NCBI GenBank assembly: GCA_937873145.1
Contig: CALMVK010000274.1
Span: 8,390-57,048, forward strand
Direction: 5' to 3'
DNA length: 48,659 bases
From: an uncultured Granulicella sp.
GTDB lineage: Bacteria; Acidobacteriota; Terriglobia; Terriglobales; Acidobacteriaceae
The stretch's first letter is position 1; each line of letters opens with the position of its first letter. A program made the translations under genes and the position numbers. The notes beneath the pieces were generated by a model. That model did not search any database, had not been told where the DNA came from, and saw only the letters and a program-made list of their open reading frames with translations. Shown in pieces: positions 5,461 to 21,811 of the stretch.

Positions 5461-7008
5461 TTACGCCGATTGGCCGTATCCGCGCACCCATTCCACGATG
5501 GACCGCACCGCGATGCCAGTGGGGCCTTTGGGCAGCCAGGGTTTGGTCTCTTCGTTCCATGCGCAGCCTGCGATGTCCAGGTGGATCCATGGAGTGTCGT
5601 CTGCAAATTCTTTCAGGAACATCGCCGCCGTGATGGCGCCTCCGGGGCGTCCGCCGGTGTTCATGATGTCGCCGATCTGGCTTTTGATCTGCTCGCGATA
5701 GTCGTCGGTGCAGGGCAGTCGCCAGAATTTTTCTCCCGAGGCTGCGGTTCCCGCCATGAACTTCTCCCACGCCGTCTCATCATTTGAAAACAGCCCAACG
5801 TTCAGGTGGCCGAGCGCGACGACGCATGCTCCGGTCAGGGTCGCGGCGTCGATGAGATGCGTGCAGCCGAGCGTTTTTGCGTAGTGCAGACCGTCGGCCA
5901 GCACCAGCCGGCCCTCGGCGTCGGTGTTGATGATCTCGATCGTCTTGCCGCTCATGGCGGTGACCACGTCGCCGGGCTTGTAGGCTTTGCCGTCCGGCAT
6001 GTTCTCTGCCGAGCAGATGACGCCGATGACCTTGACGCGTGGTTTGAGAGCGGCGATGCCTTTCATGGCGCCGATCATCGCGGCCGCTCCGGCCATGTCG
6101 TACTTCATTTTCTCCATGTTGTCGGCCGGCTTGAGCGAGATGCCTCCTGTGTCGAAGGTGATTCCTTTGCCGACCAGGCCTAGAACGGGCGCGCTCTCGG
6201 CGGCTCCGCCCTCGGGCGTGTACGTCATGACGATCAGCGCCGGCGGCTCTGCCGAGCCTTGCGCGACGGCGGCAAAGGCGCCCATCTTCAGCTCTGCCAG
6301 CTTGGCGGTCGAGTAGACCTCGCACGGCAGCCCTGCTTCGTCGCACATGGCTTTGGTTCGCGCCGCGAGCACCGTGGGCGTCAGCACGTTGCCTGGCTCG
6401 TTGACCAGTGCGCGGGCGAAGTTCTGGGCTGCGGCCAGCGCCAAACCGTCGGCAAAGCCTGCCTCGATCTCTACACGGGTGGACGGCTCTTCTTCCTTGG
6501 CAACTATGGTCAACTGGCGTACGGAGAGGTCCTTGCGGTTGCTGCGGTAGGTGTCCCAGTCCGGCTCTGCGAGCTCTGCGCCTTCGGTCAAGGCACGTGC
6601 GGTGAGCGTGCAGGGAAGCTCCTCCAGGTGCTCGTCCGAGAGCGCGTGGTCCTCTGGAAAGGCGATTGCAATCTCTCGGATTCCGCGTGGTTTGGCCGCG
6701 CGCACGGCTGCTCCGGCACCCTTGCGCACATGGTCCGCGGAGAGCGTTTTGGCTTTGCCGAGACCGACCAGCAGCAGGCGTTCCGCCTTCACTCCGGCCG
6801 GCGCGTGCAGCAGCATGGTCTCGCCGAGGGCGGCCTTGAACTCGCCCGAGCGCACGAATCTTCCGCTGCCGCTGGTGATTGCGTCCGAAGTTGTGAGCAG
6901 TACGGGCATCGGGTCGATGTCCTTGCCGGTGGCAAGGTCGACGGCAAAGACGCATAGCATGGGCGTCGCCACGGTGGCTACGTCCTGAAAGATGACCCGA
7001 GTGTCCAT
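5461..7008 (-). CDS. pepA: Leucyl aminopeptidase (cytosol aminopeptidase, M17)
   Basis: Two-zinc aminopeptidase that removes N-terminal residues from peptides in the cytoplasm. At 515 residues it is of normal length. The catalytic domain carries the family signature NTDAEGRL (361-368), and the metal and catalytic residues are visible: Lys281 and Asp286 in KGITFDTGG, Lys293 in SLKP, Asp304 in KYDMAG, Asp363, Glu365 and Arg367. The N-terminal half is the usual divergent M17_N domain. The gene converges with the barrel gene ending at 5415, with 45 bases between them. In enterobacteria PepA also binds DNA, but nothing here shows such a role. Confidence 0.95.
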   Translation of the reverse strand: MDTRVIFQDVATVATPMLCVFAVDLATGKDIDPMPVLLTTSDAITSGSGRFVRSGEFKAALGETMLLHAPAGVKAERLLLVGLGKAKTLSADHVRKGAGAAVRAAKPRGIREIAIAFPEDHALSDEHLEELPCTLTARALTEGAELAEPDWDTYRSNRKDLSVRQLTIVAKEEEPSTRVEIEAGFADGLALAAAQNFARALVNEPGNVLTPTVLAARTKAMCDEAGLPCEVYSTAKLAELKMGAFAAVAQGSAEPPALIVMTYTPEGGAAESAPVLGLVGKGITFDTGGISLKPADNMEKMKYDMAGAAAMIGAMKGIAALKPRVKVIGVICSAENMPDGKAYKPGDVVTAMSGKTIEIINTDAEGRLVLADGLHYAKTLGCTHLIDAATLTGACVVALGHLNVGLFSNDETAWEKFMAGTAASGEKFWRLPCTDDYREQIKSQIGDIMNTGGRPGGAITAAMFLKEFADDTPWIHLDIAGCAWNEETKPWLPKGPTGIAVRSIVEWVRGYGQSA

Positions 7009-20452: not shown

Positions 20453-21685
20453 TTACACTTCCACTGCGATGCGGCCGTAGCGCTTCTCTACATACTCGTC
20501 CAGGATGACCTGAAACTCCTCGACGATACGATCGCCCTTGAGGGTTACGAAGAGCTTGCCATCGACGTACACCGGTGCCTTTGGCTCCTCGAACGTTCCG
20601 GGAAGCGAGATGCCGATGTTGGCATGCTTGGACTCCCCCGGTCCATTGACGATACAGCCCATGACGGCGAGCTTGAGCTCTTCGACGCCCGGATACATCT
20701 TCTTCCACTCCGGCATCGATTCGACGAGATAGCTCTGGATCCGCTCGGCGAGTTCCTGGAAGTAGGTGGAGGTTGTCCTTCCACAGCCTGGACAGCTAGT
20801 CACCTGCGGCATGAAGCTGCGAATACCCAGCGACTGCAAAATTTGCTGGCCGCACCGTACCTCTTCGCTGCGGTCTCCTCCCGGCGTGGGCGTCAGCGAT
20901 ACGCGGATTGTGTCGCCGATGCCGGCCAGCAGCAACGGCGCAAGACCCGCCGTCGAAGCGACGACTCCCTTCATGCCCATGCCTGCCTCAGTCAAGCCGA
21001 GATGCAGGGCATAGTCGCAGCGCCGCGCCAGCTCCGTGTACACGTCGATCAGGTCTCGCACGCCTGAGACCTTCGCGCTCAGGATGATCTGGTTCCGCCG
21101 TAGACCGTAGCGCTCCGCAGCCGCAGCATTGTCGAGCGCAGAGACGACCATCGCCTCCATCATCACGTCCCGAGCCTCGCGCGGCTGAGGCAGTTGTGCG
21201 TTGTCGGACATCATGCGCGTCAGCAGCGCCTGATCGAGCGAGCCCCAGTTGACCCCGATGCGTACCGGCTTTTGGTGCTCCACCGCAACCTCAATCATGG
21301 TGCGGAAGTTGTCATCGTCCTTGCGCCCGATCGAGACATTGCCAGGATTGATTCTGTATTTCGCGAGTGCCCTGGCGCACTCTGGAAATTTGCGCAGCAA
21401 CAGATGCCCGTTGTAGTGGAAGTCTCCGATGATGGGAGTTTTCCAGCCCTTTTGCGCGAGTGCTGCCACGATCGCCGGCACTGCCTGCGCCGCGTCGTCG
21501 TTGTTTACCGTGATGCGCACCATCTCCGACCCAGCCCGGGCCAGGGCAGCGATCTGCTGCACGGTACTTTCAATATCTGCGGTGTCGGTGTTGGTCATCG
21601 ACTGCACAACGACCGGCGCAGCCGACCCAACGACTACCCCACCGATGTCGACGTTTGCAGCTTTTCTGCGTGTAATTTGAGGCAT
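20453..21685 (-). CDS. ispG: 4-hydroxy-3-methylbut-2-en-1-yl diphosphate synthase (flavodoxin), IspG
   Basis: Iron-sulfur enzyme of the MEP isoprenoid pathway that converts ME-cPP to HMBPP. At 410 residues it is the short bacterial form, with the N-terminal TIM barrel ([28 protein letters not shown]) and C-terminal ferredoxin-like domain. The [4Fe-4S] ligands are visible: Cys298 and Cys301 (CPGCGRT), Cys344 and Glu351 ([10 protein letters not shown]). It starts 49 bases from a divergent tRNA-Arg, so their promoters share that gap. Confidence 0.96.
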
Positions 21686-21734
21686 AGCGTTGCAGTCAGT
21701 TTACCATCGGCCCTGCGATACACTAAGCCTGCGT

Positions 21735-21811
21735 GGCCCGGTAGCTCAGTTGCATAGAGCAGCGCACTCCTAACGCGAAGGTCGCAGGTTGGACTCCTGC
21801 CCGGGCCACCA
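21735..21811 (+). tRNA. tRNA-Arg (anticodon CCT)
   Basis: A 77-base cloverleaf with encoded CCA. The acceptor GGCCCGG pairs fully with CCGGGCC, the D stem is GCTC/GAGC, the anticodon loop is CTCCTAA, and the T stem is GCAGG/CCTGC. Two oddities are read directly. The D loop AGTTGCATA has C where G19 is expected and the T loop TTGGACT has G where C56 is expected, so the 19-56 pair is swapped to C-G. The anticodon stem GCGCA/CGCGA keeps three GC pairs flanked by A31-C39 and G27-A43 mismatches. TACACT at 21719-21724 may be its -10 element; the -35 is weak. Confidence 0.93.

Follow-up and report, generated by a model that had tools for sequence, protein, structure and literature searches.

The tRNA-Arg(CCT) gene of an uncultured Granulicella sp. 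carries C19 and G56 at its elbow instead of G19 and C56, and this reversed pair is, judged from the genomes compared, a group-wide and recurrent alternative to the standard one that is concentrated in arginine tRNAs, and no lone oddity. At a probability of about 0.78, we favor the explanation that the gene specifies a working tRNA-Arg(CCU) for AGG with C19-G56 at its elbow, that selection would act on the geometry of the pair, and that arginine tRNAs would be freer to vary at this position.

The window, that is, the whole 48,659-nucleotide stretch of DNA that was analyzed, contains the gene on its forward strand at positions 21735–21811. ARAGORN called tRNA-Arg(cct) there and the Rfam tRNA model RF00005 (cut-off 29) matched the same positions with a score of 56.5 bits, in agreement with the identity given in the original prediction. 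As had also been predicted, the acceptor (7 bp), D (4 bp) and T (5 bp) stems were free of mismatches and the CCA end was encoded. In standard numbering, the D loop AGTTGCATA (21748–21756) reads A14 G15 U16 U17 G18 C19 A20 U20a A21, with C19 at 21753 and A20, the arginine identity base, at 21754, and the T loop TTGGACT (21789–21795) reads U54 U55 G56 G57 A58 C59 U60, with G56 at 21791. The register of C19 is fixed because positions 16 to 21 hold no G other than G18 and the T loop comprises 7 nt in the ARAGORN model. This numbering confirmed the predicted bases: the elbow pair is C19-G56 and not G19-C56, and it is complementary and capable of Watson-Crick pairing. The remaining loop contacts, U8-A14, G15-C48, G18-U55 and U54-A58, were standard. 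The arginine identity elements are A20, C35, U/G36 and A/G73, with A20 as the main determinant, according to the accessible part of one report (PMC9976931), and the gene carries A20, C35, U36 and A73. The anticodon stem-loop (21762–21778, anticodon CCT at 21769–21771) had been described as weak, and both mismatches behind that description were present, G27-A43 at 21762/21778 and A31-C39 at 21766/21774. The source genome also encodes a tRNA-Met(CAT) with an A31-C39 mismatch (L060, G000 contig C303, positions 5538–5611).

Across the genus, the 77-nt gene was identical in 29 of 37 genomes, the source genome included, and five further genomes harbored full-length copies that were 92–99% alike. C19-G56 was retained in all five variants, as were the two mismatches of the anticodon stem, and in four of the five the T stem had undergone compensated changes. 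The complementary pair was kept in the 34 full-length copies (29 identical, five variants). Another genome contributed the first 50 nt of the gene at a contig end, and the search of the 37 genomes found no full-length Arg(CCT) copy in G017 and G019. The two anticodon-stem mismatches might be taken as signs of a decaying gene or a sequencing error; however, the identical copies and the compensated stem changes rule out, as far as sequence can, an error or a single decaying gene, and the 27-43 mismatch is older than the swap and present in relatives outside the group, so that we give this explanation hardly any credence. Decay had been considered less likely from the outset, and conservation across the group, together with variants that keep C19-G56 through compensated stem changes, bore this out.

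The ORF upstream of the tRNA (20453–21685, reverse strand), which we take to be IspG (GcpE)-like, served as a synteny marker, and tblastn located an IspG-like ORF upstream in 28 of the 30 genus loci (L001–L030). The hexamer TACACT at 21719–21724 on the forward strand, a -10-like box 16 nt 5′ of the tRNA, recurred 14–24 nt upstream of the gene in 22 of these 30 loci, the flanks being otherwise variable. A simple sigma-70 consensus scan returned no promoter in the window, and the recurrent box is a hint of transcription, as a candidate -10 element only. In three genus loci (L003, L008 and L020), two extra copies of the last 20-odd bases of the tRNA lay downstream at a spacing of 52–56 nt.

Within the source genome, RF00005 detected 49 tRNA genes, at which ARAGORN resolved 45 distinct tRNAs. 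The T loop contained TTCGA in 36 of them, TTCAA in eight and TTGGA in one, Arg(CCT) at 21735, which is the only one of the 45 to lack a TTCRA T loop. The check for another Arg(CCT) proposed in the original prediction found no second copy, standard or other, in the assembly (completeness 90.85%); likewise, 22 of 25 genomes of named records matched the Arg(CCT) pattern, with one match per genome. Arg(TCT) was present in the source genome and is also able to decode AGG by wobble. In the window, 28 heuristic ORFs together contain 914 arginine codons, 58 of which are AGG. Genes for Thr CGT, Arg TCT, Pro TGG and His GTG occurred on both contigs C66 and C73 of this genome in mirrored order (L052/L053, L065/L066, L070/L071, L079/L080), pointing to duplication, either of the region itself or in the assembly. 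The absence of a second Arg(CCT) bears on a further explanation, in which the tRNA is reserved for a task other than decoding, such as arginine donor or attachment site, and has an elbow no longer fitted to the ribosome. Elbow-altered tRNAs that serve outside translation do exist, the staphylococcal tRNA-Gly among them, but here the gene is the sole Arg(CCT) found in its genome, and upkeep of a complementary pair would be unnecessary in a tRNA that no longer serves the ribosome. We regard such a role as very improbable.

At the family level, the swapped pattern matched 22 of 200 genomes in five of 79 genera, every match being Arg(CCT), while an Arg(CCT) pattern left open at positions 19 and 56 matched 170 of the 200. 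Among the matches listed, inspected by eye, positions 19 and 56 held either G19-C56 or C19-G56 only, and the swapped group included Edaphobacter, Granulicella and Terriglobus. The original prediction had called for an alignment with Arg(CCT) of related Acidobacteriota and had named relatives with the standard pair, together with a lack of transcription of this copy, as evidence against it; the first half of this holds, in that such relatives were found outside the group, but within the genus the swapped gene is fixed as far as seen. Among six order- or class-level relatives, all with G19-C56, five had a non-pairing 27-43 (G-A or G-G; L040, L042, L044, L049 and L050) and the sixth, L043, had G-U there. 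Since it is common to five of these six outside relatives, the 27-43 mismatch predates the swap. A31-C39 or A31-G39 occurred, among the rows examined, only in swapped Acidobacteriaceae genes.

Gene order around the tRNA bears on where the reversal took place. With tblastn on short flanks, ispG was found near 16 of the 22 swapped family loci (L099–L120) and near two of 30 standard loci (L271–L300). In genus g60, the standard tRNA adjoins a divergent ispG in the arrangement seen in the window (L274, L276). Genus g82 is mixed, with one swapped member (G126) and, among the matches listed, four standard ones: ispG lay within about 5 kb of the tRNA gene, in varying orientation, in the swapped G126 and in two standard members, G199 and G245; around the standard genes of the other two, G176 and G232, a range of about 10 kb contained none. 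Six of the 22 swapped loci had no ispG in the fetched flanks; five of these belong to genus g80, where no ispG was found within about 10 kb in five of six swapped loci. This arrangement suggests, for part of the group only, that the pair changed in place near ispG, because six swapped and 28 of 30 standard loci had no ispG in their flanks. Alternatively, a swapped gene may have been imported from a phage, an element or another lineage and have replaced the native gene in the whole group or part of it. The near-identical genes across five genera are consistent with such an import, yet the swapped gene sits near ispG in 28 of 30 genus loci, as the standard gene does in g60. Viewed over wider flanks, g82 and g80 cut both ways on an in-place versus a horizontal origin: a single swapped member among standard ones, and g80 genes away from ispG, favor import, whereas in three of the five g82 genomes the tRNA gene, swapped or standard, lies in the vicinity of ispG.

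The gene's 3′ part recurred in genus genomes and, in three cases examined, adjoined tyrosine integrases (PF00589). These copies, 98–100% alike, lay at 5758 (L656), 137 (L658) and about 5949 (L660) on contigs of G035, G002 and G027, and to judge by their distances from the full gene, the elements would measure some 16 to 77 kb. By this evidence the Arg(CCT) gene is an attachment site for integrative elements, which would also suit an import.

Beyond the family, the swapped pattern gave at least 120 matches in genome contigs, of which 80 loci were analyzed, and 79 of the 80 listed were tRNAs. Among the matches listed were 72 Arg(CCT), two Arg(CCG), one each of Ala, Asn, Thr and Pro, and one two-base anticodon call, and the main groups were Acidobacteriaceae, Brevundimonas and its relatives, and Blastocatellia. 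In G266 and G267 (Aridibacter and another Acidobacteriota MAG), Arg(CCG) and Arg(CCT) of the same genome both carry C19-G56 (L168, L169, L175), a pattern that would fit copying of one gene from the other and a change of its anticodon. The Arg(CCT) pattern matched 91 of 99 genomes in the family of Brevundimonas mediterranea, presumably Caulobacteraceae, and 101 of 118 in the class of Pyrinomonas, presumably Blastocatellia. Read by eye, the 92 Caulobacteraceae rows comprised 10 C-G, 82 G-C and no mismatched pairs, and the nearest standard rows shared the anticodon-arm sequence of the swapped ones save one stem base. The 104 Blastocatellia rows comprised 72 G-C, 24 C-G and 8 U-A, again with no mismatched pair, and the matched stretches of G448 and G482 differed solely at positions 16, 19 and 56, with C-G in one and U-A in the other. 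In both groups, the swapped genes share their body with the standard genes of their own relatives, which argues against import.

A pattern that requires neither G19 nor C56 admits nine combinations, six of them non-Watson-Crick, and all 43 of its matches in 791 genomes were Watson-Crick pairs (C-G, A-U or U-A). The matches numbered five in the phylum of Brevundimonas (4 of 299 genomes), 30 in the window's phylum (29 of 247) and eight in the phylum of Mycoplasma sp. SG1 (8 of 245), rates that are slightly inflated by the choice of match carriers (G000, G255 and G271) as survey centers; we take the phyla to include Pseudomonadota and Acidobacteriota. Isotypes were assigned from the anticodon position, with six loci confirmed by ARAGORN. 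Arginine tRNAs accounted for 36 of the 43, comprising 28 Arg(CCT) with C-G or U-A and five Arg(TCG) with A-U in the phyla of Brevundimonas and the window, and three Arg(CCT) with A-U in the Mycoplasma phylum; the other seven were one Val, three Ala, two Met and one Asn. The patterns fix a D stem of GCTC/GAGC, A14, G15 and a D loop of 8–9 nt and thus survey one D-stem class, in which arginine tRNAs are two of the source genome's 12. The original prediction of a compensated swap, as opposed to an error at one site, is supported by the group-wide conservation and by the lack of any mismatched 19-56 pair in the Blastocatellia rows or the 43 matches. Because rows are clustered by descent, row counts overstate independent events; counted by eye, with no fitted tree, the Arg(CCT) changes point to at least five. 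All four states, G-C, A-U, U-A and C-G, were found in Arg(CCT), and no G-U or U-G wobble step was seen at 19-56 among the Arg(CCT) rows surveyed.

Among unique tRNAs of IMG/VR viral contigs, as called by ARAGORN, arginine accounted for 8 of 20 with C-G and 35 of 48 with U-A, and, among the matches listed (80 loci analyzed for each), for 29 of 76 with A-U and 19 of 105 in the G-C baseline. The A-U and G-C scans gave at least 120 matches each, and the comparison is one of isotype shares, not of abundances; the C-G scan first took any base before G18, and its loci were recounted with a stricter form. Relative to the baseline, the arginine excess reached Fisher p values of 8e-11 (U-A), 0.002 (A-U) and 0.03 (C-G) on contigs that are not independent of one another. 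A20 was present in 72 of the 73 arginine tRNAs with non-G-C pairs on phage contigs, and U20 in 62 of the 77 others. Swapped Arg(CCT) genes were also found in viral contigs, as an import would have it, but seven of the eight arginine tRNAs with C-G on viral contigs have no other tRNA in their locus, which makes it probable that many are host ends of attachment sites; weighing these points with those from gene order, we consider import quite unlikely. Phage contigs further yielded 39 unique tRNAs with C19 and C56 (L301–L341), one of them arginine, and two with G19 and G56. In 35 of the 38 non-arginine members of the C19/C56 class, position 20 is G, which may pair with C56 in place of G19, and the rest look mismatched; owing to this possible shifted pair, the class was counted neither for pairing nor cleanly against it. 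Two viral loci (L121 and L127) held tRNA-like genes with a 6-nt anticodon loop and a two-base anticodon call. At the level of gene sequences, the bacterial and phage surveys demonstrate that the identity of 19-56 changes repeatedly while the pair stays complementary, with an excess in arginine tRNAs.

We propose that the pair was reversed in an ancestor of an Acidobacteriaceae group, probably in place near ispG; it has stayed complementary ever since. Separate changes have taken place in Arg(CCT) of Brevundimonas relatives, of Blastocatellia and of Mycoplasma and other small genomes near it, as well as in phage tRNAs, where arginine is in excess. A possible path runs from G-C through A-U and U-A to C-G via G-U and U-G steps. 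The swapped Arg(CCU) would decode AGG with its D and T loops joined by C19-G56. RNase P and the L1 stalk stack on the flat elbow pair, and LeuRS and ValRS contact the tRNA elbow, as described in the available text of PMC4810234. C-G and G-C have equal Watson-Crick geometry and a similar flat face, and for this reason the swapped elbow can be expected to keep its stacking with RNase P and the ribosome. Arginine tRNAs may be freer to vary because ArgRS reads A20 and C35 and not 19-56, and because the codon of Arg(CCU) is rare and can also be covered by Arg(UCU). Rare codon use alone would be insufficient, since the TCT isoacceptors of phages and the TCG isoacceptors of Acidobacteriota are affected too.

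A possible side effect of the swap is the loss of Psi55, with G56 departing from the TruB consensus. The minimal TruB substrate is GUUYRANYC at positions 53–61, according to the accessible portion of PMC7912444, and the gene reads GUUGGACUC instead, with G at position 56. This departure might itself have been selected, if a change of base 56, followed by one of base 19, removed a site read by TruB, by a T-loop or elbow nuclease or by integrases. G56 breaks the Y of the substrate in a genome in which a TruB_N domain was found; versions with A19-U56 nevertheless retain Y56, which argues against TruB escape as the common cause. The recurrence of the gene's 3′ part as attachment sites beside integrases would suit escape from integration, but elements that carry the swapped T loop still integrate at the gene, which weakens that variant, and phage tRNAs, exposed to host nucleases, do carry the change. 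In its general form, this explanation would make 19-56 of arginine tRNAs, in several bacterial phyla and in phages, an evolving, selected character that takes all four Watson-Crick pairs and escapes a reader of G19-C56 or of C56, be it a modification system of the TruB type, a tRNA nuclease or something else that recognizes the elbow; if true, arginine tRNAs would have a modification and decay profile unlike the rest of the tRNA pool. We judge it unlikely, though with a real chance of being correct.

Under the favored explanation, selection on pair geometry, natural and conserved replacements of G19-C56 could tell, with no need for mutants, which users of the elbow require the shape of the pair and which its identity. 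The repeated changes make a supposedly fixed contact accessible to evolutionary tests, and the puzzling bias towards arginine can be tested as well. T-loop rules that assume C56, including TruB sites, tRNA finders and attachment-site predictors, may misjudge such genes.

In the portions available, two reviews treat G19-C56 as a conserved contact for RNase P, the ribosome and several enzymes (PMC4810234, PMC7912444). Our search of the open literature, with subscription journals mostly outside it, found, among the matches listed, no report of a natural tRNA with C19-G56, U19-A56 or A19-U56; PMC10412605 (G56/C19) and PMC5758916 (U19/A56) appeared there as matches by term, and in the accessible text of PMC10944890 C19-G56 is the name of an A-site tRNA pair only. 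Compared with a standard bacterial tRNA-Arg(CCU), the gene shares the cloverleaf, A20, C35, U36, A73, U8-A14, G15-C48, G18-U55, U54-A58 and CCA, and differs in having C19-G56 where the standard has G19-C56, and in its A31-C39 mismatch. Its anticodon stem recalls the tRNAs with 4-bp anticodon stems, a class defined by tRNAscan-SE, whose deviations are said in the available part of PMC13092985 to be commoner in low-abundance tRNA species; a text search of that part of the main text did not find G19. One end pair is open in those tRNAs, whereas both are open here, and ARAGORN draws three anticodon-stem pairs for Arg(CCT). As far as the accessible text of PMC7609411 goes, tRNA-Pyl and mitochondrial tRNAs lack G19 and C56 as this gene does, but there the pair is lost, while here its identity is reversed. 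Counterparts also exist in the IMG/VR tRNAs with A19-U56, U19-A56 or C19-G56, which have in common with it a Watson-Crick pair of changed identity and show an excess of arginine tRNAs, nearly all with A20. The U-A and A-U arginine tRNAs of this set are, unlike the Granulicella gene, often part of tRNA arrays and mostly Arg(TCT), whereas the C-G ones are mostly single and may be host ends.
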